Shown here in pieces: positions 31,215 to 46,567 of a DNA stretch of 46,567 nucleotides. Position 1 is the stretch's first letter; every line of letters starts with the position of its first letter. The notes beneath the pieces are model-generated. The model was not told the origin of the DNA. It ran no database searches and worked only from the letters and a program-made list of their open reading frames with translations. Source of the DNA: an uncultured Spirochaetales bacterium (GTDB taxonomy: Bacteria; Spirochaetota; Spirochaetia; Sphaerochaetales; Sphaerochaetaceae); contig CASFLH010000067.1 of the NCBI GenBank assembly GCA_949295505.1, positions 1 through 46,567 on the forward strand. The letters run 5' to 3'. The position numbers and the translations under genes are program-made.

Positions 31215-32039
31215 ATGAAGGTTCTGCTCCCGGAGGCATATGGTTTCTGCTACGGGGTAAGATCTGCAGTCGGAAAGGCTGAGGAAGCGCTCTCCCTTGC
31301 AGAGAGAGATTCCCTTCCTTGCTATTCATATGGTGATATCGTTCATAGCGGGGCCGTGATGGCGGGTCTTCTTGCTCGTGGCATGAAGAGAATCTTCTCC
31401 GCGCGCGAGGCTATGGAACCAGGGTATGTCGTGATCAGGGCTCATGGCATCACGGATCAGGAAAGGGCTATTCTTGTCCAGAACGGCAATACGATAATCG
31501 ATGCAACGTGCCCTGTTGTCCTTCGGAGCCAGAGCATACTCCGTTCATCTCCCTGCGCTGTTGTCATCGGACAGGGAGGACATAGTGAGGTCGTTGCGCT
31601 TCTTGGTGCAAATCGTTCCGCAGTCCTTATAGAGAATGCTGGTGATCTCTGTCGCCTGGAAAGCGGCGAATGTGATGCTGTCGTACAGACGACATTCTCT
31701 ACCGATGAACTTTCTCTCATCTTGTCTGAGGCAGAAGAAAAGGGCATTTCCCTCCGCCTCAGAAGCCAGGTGTGCAGAGCCTCCATCGAAAGACGCGAAG
31801 CGCTTATCAGGCTTTTGGAGAGAGTAGAGGCACTCGTTGTCGCGGGAGACAGGTCGTCTCGCAACACAGCAGAGCTGTGGAGAATGGGGGAAAAGGCTGG
31901 GGTTCCTTCTTTCCTTGTTTCTTCTGAGGAGGAGATTCCTGACATGGTCTGGGCATATGGTACAGTCGGATTGACAGCGGGCGCTTCTTGTCCCGATACT
32001 CTCATTGACAGCATAAAAAGGAGGCTCGAGAATGGCTGA
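31215..32039 (+). CDS. ispH: 4-hydroxy-3-methylbut-2-enyl diphosphate reductase
   Basis: A 274-residue IspH (LytB), the last enzyme of the MEP pathway, making IPP and DMAPP with a [4Fe-4S] cluster. The cluster cysteines are C12 (GFCYGV), C99 (DATCP) and C187 (SQVCRAS). Substrate residues include H44 (GDIVHSG), H77 (RAHG), H123 and E125 (GGHSEV), and T160. The C-terminus has LTAGASCPDTLID, a normal ending. GTGAGG precedes the ATG. It overlaps rex by eight bases, and expression from upstream must pass the terminator-like hairpin. Confidence 0.93.
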   Translation: MKVLLPEAYGFCYGVRSAVGKAEEALSLAERDSLPCYSYGDIVHSGAVMAGLLARGMKRIFSAREAMEPGYVVIRAHGITDQERAILVQNGNTIIDATCPVVLRSQSILRSSPCAVVIGQGGHSEVVALLGANRSAVLIENAGDLCRLESGECDAVVQTTFSTDELSLILSEAEEKGISLRLRSQVCRASIERREALIRLLERVEALVVAGDRSSRNTAELWRMGEKAGVPSFLVSSEEEIPDMVWAYGTVGLTAGASCPDTLIDSIKRRLENG

Positions 32040-32700
32040 TGCAAGAATTCCTCTCCCTTCTGTAAGGAGATTCCCATCTTATCTGCGCATACTCCTGCAG
32101 AGAAAAGAGGCAGGGGAGAGAACCATCAGCGCTACGCAGCTTGCATTGGAGCTTGGCCTGACGCCGATACAGGTGAGAAAGGATCTTGCCAGCACAGGTA
32201 TAGAAGGACGTCCGAAAGTTGGTTTTCTTATAGAGGAGATCATTGCGGCGATTACCCATTCCCTTGGATGGGATAATCTCACGGAAGCTCTGATAATAGG
32301 AGCTGGTAACCTTGGCTCTGCTCTTGCGGCATATGATGGATTCTCCGCATATGGGCTCCGGATCGTGGCAATCTTTGACAAGGATCCACAGAAAATCGGC
32401 AGGAATATCGGGCATCTCACAGTCCAGCCGCTGGAGAGTATAAACCAGTACATACGAAGCAACAGGGTCACGATTGCAGTTATTGCCGTGCCTGCCAATC
32501 AGGCGCAGGCCACTGCTGATATGCTCATAAAATGCGGAATCCGCGGAATCTGGAACTTCGCTCCGAAGAACCTCAAGGTCCCGGAGGATGTCGTGATGCA
32601 GCGCACGGATCTTGCCGCTTCCTTTGCAGTTCTCTCCGTAATGCTCAGAAGGAAATACAGAGAAGAGACGGATTTCGAAGAGTCTGATAGCGACTATTAA
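32032..32700 (+). CDS. rex: Redox-sensing transcriptional repressor Rex
   Basis: A 222-residue Rex protein. Residues 1-80 form the winged-helix domain, with ISATQLALELGLTPIQVRKDL as the recognition region (in parts: ISATQLALELGL, TPIQVRKDL). The Rossmann domain follows with ALIIGAGNLGSALAAY; it binds NADH or NAD+. High NADH releases Rex from DNA and turns on fermentation and hydrogen genes. Its place directly upstream of a hydrogenase operon is telling. It is translated with ispH through an eight-base overlap. Confidence 0.95.
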   Translation: MADARIPLPSVRRFPSYLRILLQRKEAGERTISATQLALELGLTPIQVRKDLASTGIEGRPKVGFLIEEIIAAITHSLGWDNLTEALIIGAGNLGSALAAYDGFSAYGLRIVAIFDKDPQKIGRNIGHLTVQPLESINQYIRSNRVTIAVIAVPANQAQATADMLIKCGIRGIWNFAPKNLKVPEDVVMQRTDLAASFAVLSVMLRRKYREETDFEESDSDY

Positions 32701-32719: not shown

Positions 32720-32737
32720 ATGTTACAGCGTTCACAT
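32720..32737. promoter_or_regulatory. Candidate Rex operator
   Basis: ATGTTA-CAGCGT-TCACAT resembles the Rex operator TTGTGA-N6-TCACAA (9 of 12 arm positions, with the inner five-base arms 9 of 10). It lies 20 bases after the rex stop and about 77 bases before the -35 box of the hydrogenase operon. The centre is less A+T-rich than usual, so this is a tentative call. Confidence 0.4.
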
Positions 32738-32813: not shown

Positions 32814-32842
32814 TTGACTTACCTTAAAAACTCGGATAGTCT
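32814..32842 (+). promoter_or_regulatory. Promoter of the hydrogenase operon
   Basis: TTGACT (32814-32819), a 17-base spacer and TAGTCT (32837-32842), followed 12 bases later by the TAGGAGAG ribosome binding site. The only good sigma-70-like match between rex and the first hydrogenase gene. Confidence 0.55.
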
Positions 32843-32864: not shown

Positions 32865-33122
32865 ATGGCGGAAAAGGAGAAGCTCAGAATCGAGCTCTGC
32901 ATGGGATCAAGCTGCTTTGCCAGAGGCAACAGCGGTGCTCTTATGAGCCTTGAGGAGTTCGCGGAGCAGAACGGGTTATCGGATAGGATTGAGCTTGAGG
33001 GGCATCTCTGCCTCGGGAAATGCAATTCTGGACCGCATTTCAGAATCGGTGATAAGGAATATTCCGGAATCGCGGATCCGGAGGCTGTCATCGACCTTGT
33101 GAAGAAGGCGCTGGAGGAATAA
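32865..33122 (+). CDS. Thioredoxin-like [2Fe-2S] ferredoxin (NuoE/HydC-type), first copy
   Basis: An 85-residue protein with the thioredoxin-like [2Fe-2S] fold seen in NuoE and hydrogenase HydC subunits. Cysteines follow the pattern CMGSSC ... CLGKC (C-x4-C ... C-x3-C). It would pass electrons to or from the hydrogenase modules. The ATG at 32865 has TAGGAGAG in front. It is the first gene of a five-gene operon and is one base from the sensory hydrogenase gene. A second protein of the same family is encoded at 36118. Confidence 0.85.
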   Translation: MAEKEKLRIELCMGSSCFARGNSGALMSLEEFAEQNGLSDRIELEGHLCLGKCNSGPHFRIGDKEYSGIADPEAVIDLVKKALEE

Positions 33123-33123
33123 G

Positions 33124-34911
33124 ATGCAGAATCCTATCTACACCGAAGTCACAAGTTGCCGTGACTGTTACAAATGCGTCCGGTCCTGCCCTGTAAAGGC
33201 AATACAGATCAAGGAAGGACATGCGATGATCATAAAGGACCGCTGTATCTACTGCGGCAAATGCGTGCATGTCTGTCCGAACAGTGCAAAGAAGGTAAGG
33301 GATGACAGGGATCGTGTCAGAATCGCCATTGATTCGGGGCGCAAGGTCATCTGCTCGCTGGCGCCTTCTTATGTCTCCGAGTTCGCCGGTTATGAGAAAG
33401 AGCTTCTTGCCGCGCTGAAGAAACTGGGTTTCTCTGCAGTCTCGGAGACTGCTATCGGAGCCACTCTTGTCTCGCAGGCGCTTGATATCTACGCCTCCAG
33501 ACATGATGGCAAAGCCCCGTTCATAGGAACAGCCTGCCCATCAGTGGTTGAGCTTGTTAAGAAATACTATCCTGACAAAGTCAGTCTTCTCGCTCCGGTT
33601 CCATCCCCGCTGCAGACACATGCCGCTTATCTCAGGCATATCTATAACGAGGATTTCTCCATTGCGTTCATAGGTCCATGCATTGCCAAGAAGGTGGAAG
33701 CTGATACAACTACCGGCTATCCTGATTTCGCGATTACATTCAGGGAGCTGAGGGAGTGGATGGCAGAAGAGGGCATTGATCTTTCCTCAATAGGAGCAGG
33801 GGATGTGGATTTCGTCCCTGCCAAGGCTGGAATGGCTACAATCTATCCGATAGAAGGTGGTCAGATCGCGACTTCCAGGCTCTGGAGCGGACGTTCATTC
33901 GGCGCCGACGCGCTTGCGTTCTCCGGCATAGAGCAGGTCATGTCAGCGCTCTGCGGCAATGAATTCCCGATGCCGTTCCTTGAGCTTCTCGCATGTGATG
34001 GCGGCTGTATCAACGGTCCTGCCGCAGATGATTCTGTTTCCATGGCCACAAGGAAGAAGGCAACCTCGGACCATACTATTGAACGTCTTGATGAGCCTTC
34101 CCTTTTCCAGGGTGACGAGGAATTCGCAGAGCTTCTCCTCGAGAAGGGCTATGGAATACTCCACAGTGCAGGGCCCAAGGCTGAGCCGAATGGAAAGGGG
34201 AAATACTCCGAGGATGATATCAGAAGGGCTCTTGTCGATCTTGGAAAGCTCACGAAAGCCGATGAGCTCAACTGCGGTGGCTGCGGTTATAACACCTGCC
34301 GTGATATGGCTGTCGCTTATCTTGATGGCATGGCCGAGATTGAGATGTGCGTCACGAAGATGCGCAAGGAGGCGGAAAGCAAAGTCGATGTCCTCCTGAG
34401 GACAATCCCTACAGGTGTTGTCATCGTTGATCCGGATCTGCAGATTGCGGACTGCAATATTCATTTCCTGGAGATTTTCGGGGATATGGAAGACAGCTTC
34501 CTTGATCAGAGCGTGCTTCAGATGATCAAAGGCCTTCCTCTTGAGAGATTCGTGCCGTTTGCTGACAAGTTCCGTGATCAGTTCTATCTATCGCGCCCGG
34601 GACAGTACAGAGTCCACTTCAAGGATAAATATCTTCGCGTGACATTCTTCCTTGTTGAATCCAAGAGGCTGCTTGGCGCGATGTTCGAGGATATCACAAA
34701 CCCGACCATCAGGCGTGAGACTGTCGTCAAGAAAGCCGAGGATGTCATCCAGAAGTCCCTTGAGACGGTTCAGCAGATAGCTTCGCTTCTGGGAGAGAAT
34801 GCTGCGGAGACGGAAATCATGCTCAATTCCCTCATAGATGCTTTCAGCGTGCATGGTACGGGGGAAGGCGAGAGTGATTTCCGGCAGGATGAGAATGGAG
34901 ATCTGTCATGA
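33124..34911 (+). CDS. Sensory-type [FeFe]-hydrogenase with PAS domain (group C, HydS/HfsB-like)
   Basis: A 595-residue protein in five parts: two [4Fe-4S] ferredoxin motifs (C12/15/18/22 and C41/44/47/51), an H-cluster domain (about 70-300), an extra [4Fe-4S] motif (C384/387/392/409) and a PAS domain (about 420-530) followed by a helical tail. H-cluster loops are GTACPS (C138), FIGPCIAKK (C186) and LLACDGGC (C291, C295). All four cluster ligands are kept, but the proton-transfer cysteine of the usual TSCCP is Ala137, and the Met of MPC is Gly. These changes and the PAS domain mark the group C sensory enzymes, thought to report H2 or redox state rather than turn over fast. It overlaps the phosphatase gene by four bases. 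Confidence 0.85.
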   Translation: MQNPIYTEVTSCRDCYKCVRSCPVKAIQIKEGHAMIIKDRCIYCGKCVHVCPNSAKKVRDDRDRVRIAIDSGRKVICSLAPSYVSEFAGYEKELLAALKKLGFSAVSETAIGATLVSQALDIYASRHDGKAPFIGTACPSVVELVKKYYPDKVSLLAPVPSPLQTHAAYLRHIYNEDFSIAFIGPCIAKKVEADTTTGYPDFAITFRELREWMAEEGIDLSSIGAGDVDFVPAKAGMATIYPIEGGQIATSRLWSGRSFGADALAFSGIEQVMSALCGNEFPMPFLELLACDGGCINGPAADDSVSMATRKKATSDHTIERLDEPSLFQGDEEFAELLLEKGYGILHSAGPKAEPNGKGKYSEDDIRRALVDLGKLTKADELNCGGCGYNTCRDMAVAYLDGMAEIEMCVTKMRKEAESKVDVLLRTIPTGVVIVDPDLQIADCNIHFLEIFGDMEDSFLDQSVLQMIKGLPLERFVPFADKFRDQFYLSRPGQYRVHFKDKYLRVTFFLVESKRLLGAMFEDITNPTIRRETVVKKAEDVIQKSLETVQQIASLLGENAAETEIMLNSLIDAFSVHGTGEGESDFRQDENGDLS

Positions 34912-36104
34912 ATAATATCTTCATCGATGTGGACTATGCACAGATCTATAAGCATGGGCAGAAGATAGGAGGTGATGTCTTCCTCCTTTCCCGCAACCCT
35001 GAGAACAATCAGATTGTAGCAACGCTCTCCGATGGTCTTGGCAGCGGGGTTAAAGCCAATGTCCTTGCGTCGCTTACGGCGCACATGGCTCACAGGCTTT
35101 CCTTCTCCCCGATAGATCTCAGCCACTCGGCGAAGATCATCATGGATACGCTTCCAGTCTGCAAGGAAAGGAAGATAAGCTATTCCACGTTCACGATTGC
35201 GGATATCCGTTACAAGGAAGGGATGGAGGACATCGAGGTGAATCTTGTTGAGTATGATAATCCCTCATCCCTCCGTTTTTCCGGTCCCGAGCCGGTGTCA
35301 TGGGAGAGAAGCCGTACGGAGCTGCAGCGGGAAGGTGCTTTCAAGAAGGAAATCATCGGCCATTCCGTTTTCAAGCTGGGCTTCGGAGATCGGCTTGTGA
35401 TGTTCTCAGATGGCGTCACACAGTCCGGTCTCGGCAAGAGCCTGCCACTTGGCTGGAGACTTGACGGAGTGCGGAAATTCATTTCTGAAGAGATACGCAA
35501 GGACGAGGATATCTCATCGAGGGATCTCTCTCGAGCTATCGTGCAGAAAGCCTGTTCGCTTGACGGACTTGCAGCTAAAGATGATATTACGTGCGTAGTG
35601 GTGTATATAAGGAAGCCCCGGCGTCTCATGATTGTCACAGGGCCTCCATTCACGAAGGAAGCCGATGAGATACTCGGACAGAAGATCCGCGATTTCGATG
35701 GCAAGAAAATCGTGTCGGGCGGAACGACAGCGCAGATTGTGTCCCGCCTTTTCGGTAAGAAGCTTACGCTGGATCTCTCTTCCTGGTCAAAGGATGTGCC
35801 TCCAGCCTCGAGGATGGAGGGAATCGATCTGGTGACTGAGGGGATGCTGACGCTGTCAAAGGTCGCGACGATCCTCGAGAAGAAGATCAACCCTGTCGAT
35901 TTGCCTAATGATCCGGCAAAGAAGTTCGTGGAGATGCTTCTCGACAGCGATCAGGTGCATTTCATTGTCGGAACCAAGATCAATGAGGCGCATCAGGATC
36001 CGAATATCCCGGTGGAAATCGGCATCAGGAGAACCATAATCGGGCGATTGAGAAAAGCGCTTGAGGAAATATATCTGAAGGAAACTTCACAGGAATATCT
36101 ATAG
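34908..36104 (+). CDS. SpoIIE-type PP2C serine phosphatase of the hydrogenase operon
   Basis: A 398-residue protein. Residues about 15-235 form a SpoIIE-like PP2C domain with metal-binding aspartates D23 (GGDVFLL), D42 (TLSDGLGSG), D168 (MFSDGVTQSG) and the late KDDITCVVV pair. Residues 237-398 form an extra domain starting RRLMIVTGPPFTK that I do not recognise; such a tail accompanies hydrogenase-linked phosphatases in clostridia. It probably turns the state of the sensory hydrogenase into dephosphorylation of a target, such as an anti-sigma antagonist, but no target is in the window. Overlap with the HydS-like gene (ATGA) supports direct partnership. Confidence 0.85.
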   Translation: MNNIFIDVDYAQIYKHGQKIGGDVFLLSRNPENNQIVATLSDGLGSGVKANVLASLTAHMAHRLSFSPIDLSHSAKIIMDTLPVCKERKISYSTFTIADIRYKEGMEDIEVNLVEYDNPSSLRFSGPEPVSWERSRTELQREGAFKKEIIGHSVFKLGFGDRLVMFSDGVTQSGLGKSLPLGWRLDGVRKFISEEIRKDEDISSRDLSRAIVQKACSLDGLAAKDDITCVVVYIRKPRRLMIVTGPPFTKEADEILGQKIRDFDGKKIVSGGTTAQIVSRLFGKKLTLDLSSWSKDVPPASRMEGIDLVTEGMLTLSKVATILEKKINPVDLPNDPAKKFVEMLLDSDQVHFIVGTKINEAHQDPNIPVEIGIRRTIIGRLRKALEEIYLKETSQEYL

Positions 36105-36117
36105 GAGGATATCACAA

Positions 36118-36378
36118 ATGAAGAAGTCAAAGGTGAAAGTCAGAATCTGTCTTGGAACCGCCTGTTTCGTACAGGGAGGAGCAGACCTCCTGCTGTACAA
36201 TGATTTCGTCGATCCGGCAATCCTTGCTGAGTGCGAGATCGAGGGATGCTCATGCCTTGATGAATGCAAGGTCGGCAATGGCAGCGCACCATATGTATCA
36301 ATCAATGATAAAGTATACAGCGGAGTGAATCAGGATATGTTCTGTAAGCTTCTTGCGGAGGCTGTGAAGAATGCTTGA
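36118..36378 (+). CDS. Thioredoxin-like [2Fe-2S] ferredoxin, second copy
   Basis: An 86-residue [2Fe-2S] protein with CLGTAC (C-x4-C) and CSCLDEC (C-x3-C), the same fold as the product of 32865 but clearly diverged. TAGGAGG precedes the ATG, and the end overlaps the hydrogenase gene by eight bases, suggesting it is the electron partner of that enzyme, while the first copy serves the sensory one. Confidence 0.85.
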   Translation: MKKSKVKVRICLGTACFVQGGADLLLYNDFVDPAILAECEIEGCSCLDECKVGNGSAPYVSINDKVYSGVNQDMFCKLLAEAVKNA

Positions 36379-37822
36379 GCTGAATAATCAGTATACTCTT
36401 ATGAAGAGGAAGATCGACACTGAAGTGCTCAAATGCTTCTTTGACGATACCCTCGTTGAGCAGGCTGATAGGCTCCCACTTGAGATCATACCTAAGACTC
36501 GCACGCCTTTCCGCTGCTGTATCTACAAGGAAAGAGCGATGGTGCGTTACCGCATCATGGCACTCGCTGGCATCAATATCGAGCGCGATGACGATGAGGA
36601 GAAGCCGCTTTCTGAATACATGCAGGAAGTGTTGGATGAGGATAAGCCACCTCTACCGCTTCTTACGACAATCATCACGGGATGCTCTGGATGCCCTAAA
36701 TCGCAGTACAGGATCAGTGATGGATGCCGTGGTTGTTTCGCGCGTCCATGTATGTCGAACTGTCCGAAGGATGCAATCATATTCATCAATGGACAGGCAC
36801 ATATCCAGGAAGACAGGTGCATCAGATGCGGCAAGTGCATGGAGGTATGTCCTTTCCACGCTGTCGTGCATATCCCCGTCCCCTGCGAGGAAGCATGCCC
36901 CGTTGATGCTGTAACGAAGAACGAGCAGGGTTTTGTCGAGATCGAGCATGACAAGTGCATCGGCTGTGGCAAATGCGTACGCTCATGCCCCTTCGGAGCT
37001 ATTGTCGAACGCTCGGGCCTTTTCCCTGTGCTCAAGATGATCAAGAAGGGCGAGAAAGTCGTTGCCATGGTTGCGCCTGCTATCGAGGGGCAGTTCCCGG
37101 GTACGCTTGAGCAGCTCAAGGCAGCTATCAGGAAGGCGGGCTTCTATGATGTCGTGGAAGTTGCTGAAGGTGCTGAGATCACAGCATGCAATGAGGCTGA
37201 GGAGCTTCATGAGAAGATCGTGGAAGGAAAGGGTTTCATGACAACCTCCTGCTGCGCTGCATATATGGAGCTTATCTATAAGCACATCCCGTATCTTAAG
37301 GACAGGCATTCGACATCTCTTTCCCCGATGGGATATACGGTGAATATCATCAAGGAGAAGTATCCTGATGCCAAGATGGTCTTTGTCGGCCCTTGTCTAG
37401 CAAAGAAAGCAGAGGTTGCAAGAAGGTATAAGGATATCAGCGGTGTCATCACATTCGCAGAGCTTGCATCTGTTTTTGTTGCCAAGGGCATCGATGTCAG
37501 GGAAATGGAAGCCGAGAGCCTTGGAGATACCGAGTCTTTCCAGGATTGCCGTGAGTTCGCAGTCACACAGGGCGTTGCCAACTGCGTGATGCGCCGTTTC
37601 GAGAAAGATGGTGTCAACGCGCGTGTTCTCCCGATCAATGGACTGGACAAGAAGACTGTCCGTTTGATGAAGACATGGGAAAAGAGAGCGCCTGAGGCGG
37701 ATCTCGTCGAGGTCATGGTCTGTGAAGGCGGTTGCCTTGCAGGACCTGGTACAATCGTAAAGCCGGCACTTGCCGTCAAGCTCAGGAATGCTGCAAAGAC
37801 AGCAAAGCCTGCAGCAAAATAA
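36371..37822 (+). CDS. [FeFe]-hydrogenase, group B-like, catalytic type
   Basis: A 483-residue hydrogenase that reduces protons or oxidises H2 at an H-cluster. After an N-terminal region with extra cysteines (CSGC at 105-108) come ferredoxin-type motifs (C119/122/127/131, C150/153/156/160, C172/176 and C196/199/202/206). H-cluster loops are TSCCAAY (292-298, with both the proton-transfer C294 and ligand C295), FVGPCLAKKAE (C342) and VMVCEGGCLAGPG (C451, C455). GPC instead of MPC and CEGGC with GPG fit group B enzymes of clostridia. The full TSCC motif means catalysis is likely, unlike the sensory partner. The tail is a short Ala/Lys stretch. HydE, HydF and HydG maturases are not in this window. 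Confidence 0.88.
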   Translation: MLELNNQYTLMKRKIDTEVLKCFFDDTLVEQADRLPLEIIPKTRTPFRCCIYKERAMVRYRIMALAGINIERDDDEEKPLSEYMQEVLDEDKPPLPLLTTIITGCSGCPKSQYRISDGCRGCFARPCMSNCPKDAIIFINGQAHIQEDRCIRCGKCMEVCPFHAVVHIPVPCEEACPVDAVTKNEQGFVEIEHDKCIGCGKCVRSCPFGAIVERSGLFPVLKMIKKGEKVVAMVAPAIEGQFPGTLEQLKAAIRKAGFYDVVEVAEGAEITACNEAEELHEKIVEGKGFMTTSCCAAYMELIYKHIPYLKDRHSTSLSPMGYTVNIIKEKYPDAKMVFVGPCLAKKAEVARRYKDISGVITFAELASVFVAKGIDVREMEAESLGDTESFQDCREFAVTQGVANCVMRRFEKDGVNARVLPINGLDKKTVRLMKTWEKRAPEADLVEVMVCEGGCLAGPGTIVKPALAVKLRNAAKTAKPAAK

Positions 37823-37830
37823 GATTTCCG

Positions 37831-37856
37831 TCCGGCCTTAGGGCCGGATGTTTTTT
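37831..37856 (+). terminator. Terminator of the hydrogenase operon
   Basis: TCCGGCC (37831-37837), a TTAG loop, GGCCGGA (37842-37848), then TGTTTTTT. A strong rho-independent terminator eight bases after the stop. Confidence 0.9.
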
Positions 37857-41251: not shown

Positions 41252-41261
41252 CTTGGTAACG

Positions 41262-41512
41262 GCAATGACGGAGACGAGTAACATCGGATGCCGCCTCTGA
41301 GAGGGTGTCCGCTTCGGCGGGTGAGAGACACCTGGGGCTACGGTGCGAAAACCACTCCTGAGCTGCATGGAGGAAAGGACCCGAGTATTCCATGCCGTTC
41401 CCTGCGTCAATGGATAATGAGCGTCCCCGTAAGGGGGAAGCAAGGTGGAACCGCGGAGCCTTTGCAGCTTCGTCCTTGCATGTTGCGAGGATGAGACTGG
41501 AAAGGCTTTTTC
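41262..41512 (+). promoter_or_regulatory. T-box riboswitch (threonine specifier) with terminator
   Basis: The leader begins with GCAATGACGGAGACGAGTA (41262-41280), the standard 5' arm of stem I. A GGTGTCC...GGTGAGAGACACC arm gives the upper stem with the AG bulge region. The specifier is ACC (41351-41353, in GCGAAAACCACTCC), a threonine codon. AAGGTGGAACCGCGG (41442-41456) is the conserved T-box sequence that pairs with the tRNA acceptor end. A terminator follows: GCCTTT pairs with AAAGGC around a long inner stem, ending in TTTTT (41507-41511). Uncharged tRNA-Thr should let transcription proceed into thrS. This 335-base region otherwise holds only the promoters. Confidence 0.93.
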
Positions 41513-46423: not shown

Positions 46424-46567
46424 ATGACGGAGAGTTCGATCCTGGCTCAGAACGAACGCTGGCGGCGCGTCTTAAGCATGCAAGTCGAGCGAATCCCGCT
46501 TCGGCGGGGGAAGCGGCGGACGGGTGAGTAACACGTGGATGATCTGCCCCCTGGACGGGAATAGCAC
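46424..46567 (+). rRNA. rrs: 16S ribosomal RNA, 5' part
   Basis: AGAGTTCGATCCTGGCTCAG (46431-46450) aligns with E. coli positions 8-27, so the mature end is near 46424. Conserved AACGAACGCTGGCGGCG and CGGACGGGTGAGTAACACG follow. GCGTCTTAAGCATGCAAG is the spirochaete form. The gene runs off the right edge after about 144 bases. One base (C at 46437) departs from the near-universal T at E. coli position 14. Confidence 0.97.

Follow-up and report, generated by a model that had tools for sequence, protein, structure and literature searches.

In the locus described here, a gut spirochaete encodes two [FeFe] hydrogenases and a protein phosphatase side by side. In the window, by which we mean the whole 46,567-nucleotide stretch of contig C67 that was analysed, the ORF list places five head-to-tail genes on the + strand at 32865-37822, in which neighbouring genes overlap or are separated by gaps of at most 13 bases. 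These encode a NuoE-like thioredoxin-fold [2Fe-2S] protein (32865..33122; PF01257 at 31.3 bits, cut-off 24.8; Cx4C and Cx3C present), a putatively PAS-linked [FeFe] hydrogenase of the sensory HydS type (33124..34911; Fe_hyd_lg_C), a SpoIIE-type PP2C serine/threonine phosphatase (34908..36104), a second NuoE-like [2Fe-2S] protein (36118..36378; PF01257 at 25.6 bits, cut-off 24.8) and a group B1 monomeric [FeFe] hydrogenase (36371..37822; TIGR04105 at 503.8 bits, cut-off 450). The HydS and phosphatase ORFs overlap by 4 bases, and those of the second [2Fe-2S] protein and the downstream hydrogenase by 8. The five-gene content and tight packing given in the initial annotation were borne out by the ORFs and by Pfam and NCBIfam, which concur on the gene types (2Fe-2S_thioredx twice, Fe_hyd_lg_C twice, SpoIIE and FeFe_hydrog_B1). 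The source is a gut spirochaete draft genome (1.76 Mb, completeness 79.6%) that has Spirochaetota as its neighbours; Candidatus Ornithospirochaeta is the nearest named relative among the matches listed, and Sphaerochaeta falls in the same clade.

The two hydrogenases differ in the residues around the H-cluster. HydS comprises two [4Fe-4S] clusters, the H-domain, a further C-terminal cluster motif, a putative PAS domain and a conserved helical tail, and in an alignment of HydS proteins from many phyla the H-cluster ligands C138, C186, C291 and C295 are present in 54/54 sequences. The protein encoded here carries the sensory substitutions C299 to A137, M353 to G184 and M497 to L289 (CpI numbering), and the same residues recur across the set, with Ala at the proton-relay Cys in 48/54, Gly at M353 in 50/54 and Leu at M497 in 48/54. 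TmHydS of Thermotoga maritima is altered at the same three positions relative to prototypical enzymes, with the same Ala and Gly as HydS but Ser instead of Leu at M497, and it has a PAS domain (PMC10055695). Between the H-domain and the PAS domain, the Cx2Cx4Cx16C cluster described in the literature for sensory hydrogenases (C384, C387, C392 and C409) is likewise invariant (54/54). The PAS match itself is weak (PAS_9, 26.2 bits and E 9.7e-6 on the isolated stretch, just under the Pfam cut-off of 27), and is located where group C enzymes have this domain. In the B1 hydrogenase, by comparison, C294, C295 and M449 are found in 22/22 sequences, so that the relay Cys and the M497 position are kept, with Gly at M353. 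From this pattern of relay Cys and methionines, HydS looks sensory and the downstream B1 enzyme looks catalytic.

Alternatively, both hydrogenases could be metabolic, with HydS acting as a slow uptake or bidirectional enzyme that assembles with HydB and with the NuoE-like proteins into a complex, whose activity would be set by the phosphatase. TmHydS is indeed catalytically active, though far below prototypical enzymes (PMC10055695), and it has been suggested that HfsABC, encoded by part of the hfsABCD operon of Thermoanaerobacterium, might form a working hydrogenase without HfsD. However, the proton-relay Cys and both methionines are changed almost throughout HydS, and pairs of HydS and phosphatase exist without a group B hydrogenase (for example, at loci L075, L077 and L135). 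Moreover, deletion of hfsB in Thermoanaerobacterium raises, rather than lowers, hydrogenase activity; it also raises the adhE transcript and changes ethanol yield (PMC5707799, PMC11837493). Taking these points together, we regard a purely metabolic role as unlikely.

The arrangement closely resembles operons already described. In hfsABCD of Thermoanaerobacterium saccharolyticum (PMC5707799, PMC11837493), to which we liken the module by gene order and description, the PAS-linked sensory HfsB, the serine phosphatase HfsC and the ferredoxin-linked HfsD appear in the same order, which places the first NuoE-like gene, hydS, the phosphatase gene and the B1 gene at the hfsA, hfsB, hfsC and hfsD (or hydA2) positions, respectively. 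The two systems differ in that HfsA is described as a poor match to any protein whereas both NuoE-like genes are clear here, in the NuoE-like gene lying between phosphatase and hydrogenase, and in the adjacent rex. In Ruminococcus albus 7 (PMC10838669), a sensory HydS and a HydA2 that depends on ferredoxin form one unit, and a bifurcating HydABC is encoded separately; the HydS-HydA2 unit is on a plasmid, and its neighbouring signalling gene has been called a Ser/Thr kinase (PMC5707799). The genome studied here has a similar set, since a third hydrogenase on contig C78 (TSCCPGW, with a HydB-like gene upstream, as in HydABC-type sets) joins the ferredoxin-type HydA2 and HydS of the operon. Group C3 of HydDB is defined as phosphatase-linked putative sensors (PMC5037454), and the module has the same sensory-type H-domain and a serine/threonine phosphatase gene linked to hydS; we found no difference from that group, the placement being made by motifs and gene linkage. 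Contig C3 encodes HydG (927 bits) and HydF (528 bits) together with an ORF that is consistent with HydE, and thus the maturases, whose absence would have counted against the module, are present.

These data uphold the earlier view that a sensory and a catalytic [FeFe] hydrogenase form a module together with a phosphatase, as judged by motifs, synteny, the intact phosphatase residues and HydEFG. We consider it probable that the locus joins a group C3 phosphatase-linked sensory operon to a group B1 fermentative hydrogenase, as the spirochaete counterpart of hfsABCD and hydS-hydA2, with a signal passing from H2 or redox state through HydS and the phosphatase to a phosphoprotein. That the module senses H2 and signals by dephosphorylation, as already proposed for its homologues, is plausible. 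H2, or a low redox potential, would alter the H-cluster state of HydS, in which the proton-relay Cys is Ala, and the change might travel via the C-terminal [4Fe-4S] domain and then the PAS domain until it reaches the conserved tail, TVQQIA.LLGENAAETE..LNS. The tail may then gate the partner PP2C phosphatase, which would dephosphorylate a Ser/Thr phosphoprotein. Fermentative redox enzymes would thereby be shifted in their expression or their activity, including the B1 hydrogenase that would get rid of reduced-ferredoxin electrons as H2. In this scheme we infer H2 as the signal, the direction of signalling and the gating of the phosphatase, and the two NuoE-like proteins probably carry electrons for the hydrogenase pair. 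In R. albus, the hydA2 transcript falls 90-fold when a partner organism removes H2 (PMC10838669). H2 sensing by [FeFe] hydrogenases has been proposed rather than proven, and in the literature consulted neither H2 sensing nor gating of the phosphatase had been demonstrated biochemically for any homologue. A published statement also weakens the relay step of the scheme.

The Pfam match of the phosphatase (PF07228, 41.2 bits, cut-off 25), its metal-binding Asp residues and its PP2C fold identify it as a SpoIIE-type PP2C enzyme. As D23, D42, D168, D225 and D226 are invariant in 47/47 sequences, the module does not fail on an inactive phosphatase domain. In the structure model (mean pLDDT 89), residues 1-237 match SpoIIE, RsbU/RsbX and related PP2C structures (3pu9, Z 25.9; 5ucg, Z 23.9). 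With SpoIIE and the RsbU/RsbX phosphatases as the best fold matches, the enzyme might be expected to act in partner switching, that is, on a phosphorylated STAS anti-anti-sigma factor whose dephosphorylation frees a sigma factor. The genomes of the genus argue otherwise. The phosphatase is present in 12/13 of them, but a STAS protein was found in only 1/13 in a search that covered PF01740, and none was found with PF01740 in the window's own assembly, which is 79.6% complete. Matches to the anti-sigma kinase family were mostly weak and lay in long frames resembling ordinary histidine kinases, the strong RsbW-like kinase being confined to the same STAS-bearing genome. Hanks-type kinases were detected in 2/13. 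The STAS and anti-sigma genes suggested as a check on the initial annotation were therefore not borne out for the genus. Because STAS proteins and Hanks-type kinases are this rare despite the prevalence of the phosphatase, a textbook SpoIIE output seems unlikely; the partner-switching reading is largely refuted for this genus by these gene profiles, and we give it very little credence for the locus.

In contrast to the two genomes with Hanks-type kinases, HPr kinase was found in 12/13. This fits an alternative in which the phosphatase acts on HPr(Ser-P) or another HprK-dependent protein, a purely conjectural link that would tie carbon catabolite control to H2 pressure. However, we saw no genomic linkage between the two, and this family of phosphatases is also present in many further phyla. 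HprK, in addition, usually bears its own phosphatase activity. We hold this target to be quite improbable.

A further feature of the phosphatase is its C-terminal part, where residues 235-398 form a separate, confidently modelled and conserved domain (pLDDT 91). This domain had no match in Pfam at E values up to 10. A known fold could not be assigned by Foldseek, whose best E value was only 2.2e-3, and VIA gave a best Z of 9.6 (6s6y_F, 116 residues, 3.1 Å), followed by molybdopterin-enzyme and NuoG Rossmann-like domains. These scores, near the level at which a match may reflect a common arrangement, are only suggestive of a Rossmann-like fold. Among 296 Spirochaetota genomes, a profile of the domain picked out exactly the 41 genomes in which the complete phosphatase was found, and no free-standing copy. 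The NEAHQDP loop of the domain, although one of its best-conserved parts, is modelled with the least order, as might be expected for a binding loop. Tentatively, and with less confidence than in the general scheme above, we suggest that the C3 phosphatase represents a distinct signalling family rather than a SpoIIE/RsbU partner switcher, in which this undescribed domain would read a redox or metabolite ligand or dock the substrate. Such an enzyme would work without STAS proteins and Hanks-type kinases, so that H2 sensing would use an undescribed phosphoprotein pathway. In a lineage that has the sensor and the phosphatase while STAS proteins and Hanks-type kinases are nearly absent, few candidate substrates are left, which would make a phosphoproteomic test simple.

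It had also been stated that no such case was described in a spirochaete. This was incorrect: a 2012 paper by Ballor et al. (cited in PMC4070709) is, by its title, concerned with hydrogen sensors of termite-gut treponemes, which are sensor-type [FeFe] hydrogenases in spirochaetes. Rumen group C3 genes have previously been assigned to Spirochaetota as well. The treponeme study reportedly stressed phosphorelay- and methylation-linked hydrogen sensors. Since these sensors, the rumen genes, HydDB group C3 and hfsABCD all predate it, the module belongs to a known type; less familiar are the phosphatase domain without a Pfam family and the phosphatase in a genus nearly devoid of STAS proteins and Hanks-type kinases. 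Group B hydrogenases are reported (PMC12578642) as the main drivers of gut H2 production, and their regulation would thus bear on H2 and methane in the rumen and gut.

Regarding the control of the operon itself, the gene directly upstream (32032..32700, + strand) encodes the redox-sensing transcriptional repressor Rex (NF003994, 255.3 bits, cut-off 130). It holds this position in most of the genus (L044, L046-L049, L051, L064, L065, L068, L069, L071-L074 and L076), being absent beside the operon in L045, L066 and L067. An imperfect inverted repeat, ATGTTACAGCGTTCACAT, at 32720..32737 is kept in relatives, with a near-perfect TGTGAN6TCACA version in L073, L067 and L051, and is a candidate binding site for either Rex or a factor of the CRP/FNR type. 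In the genome assembly, this repeat is the sole intergenic match to TGTKN6TTCACAT. The four other matches all lie within coding frames; a Rex regulon defined by the repeat was rejected for this reason, and Rex control has no support beyond adjacency and conservation. A CRP-type factor suits the repeat as well as Rex does. Of the single promoter and terminator originally proposed, the terminator is clear (37829..37856, + strand), with a 9-pair stem (7 GC) at 37829-37850, a loop of 4 and TTTTTT. The promoter did not emerge from a consensus scan upstream of gene 1, which gave nothing above background. A single promoter upstream of gene 1, predicted at 32814..32842 on the + strand (TTGACT, 17-base spacer, TAGTCT), is nevertheless likely, because the footprint TTGAC-N17/18-TA....T is kept in 18/18 aligned sequences of the genus and family.

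Finally, the gene order, for which a search across Spirochaetota had been suggested, was found to be conserved there: HydS-SpoIIE-TrxB-HydB is kept in 26/30 loci, which argues against chance, and two of the remaining four stop at a contig edge. In a wider genome scan, at least 587 stretches matched, and at every one of the 80 loci kept HydS lies immediately before the phosphatase; these loci come from Spirochaetota, Bacillota, Bacteroidota, Pseudomonadota, Acidobacteriota, Planctomycetota and other phyla. A full group-B-like hydrogenase lies beside the pair in at least 40 of these, the rest being next to other types of hydrogenase or to none at all. A quick tree of HydS proteins puts Spirochaetota at two separate positions and nests a pair from rumen Bacillota in the window's clade, which suggests either transfer or a mis-binned contig.

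The C-terminal domain of the phosphatase (residues 235–398, window 35610–36101) is conserved, and no Pfam family was matched by these residues. Across 296 Spirochaetota genomes, we found this domain always fused to this phosphatase and nowhere else; it is weakly similar to Rossmann-like domains found in NuoG and in molybdopterin enzymes.

Among the loci carrying HydS–phosphatase pairs, a Bacteroidota HydS variant was found in L106, L107, L111, L112, L124 and L129, as well as in the second copies of L118 and L123. In this variant, Asn, Lys or Phe occupies the proton-relay position, Phe is found at M497, and CxGGC is shortened by a one-residue deletion; its cofactor environment may be different. 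The partner is a normal phosphatase. L118 and L123, together with L100, each harbor two HydS–phosphatase pairs in tandem on a single contig.

Another group of loci comprises three rumen Clostridiales contigs (L075, L077 and L135), whose HydS is 58–64% identical to that of the window and from which the group B hydrogenase gene is absent. Of these three, L075 and L135 were included in the HydS tree, where the spirochaete clade encloses both, possibly as a result of transfer or mis-binning.

Upstream of the operon, a conserved inverted repeat (window 32720–32737) lies ~80 bases 5' of the −35 box. In some relatives, the repeat at this position is a near-perfect TGTGAN6TCACA, and Rex or a CRP-type factor is a candidate binder. 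Elsewhere in the window, a T-box leader (41256–41480; Rfam RF00230, 96.7 bits) precedes a gene resembling threonyl-tRNA synthetase, and at 46424–46567 a 16S rRNA gene runs off the contig, leaving only its 5' end; the contig end is probably an assembly break point.
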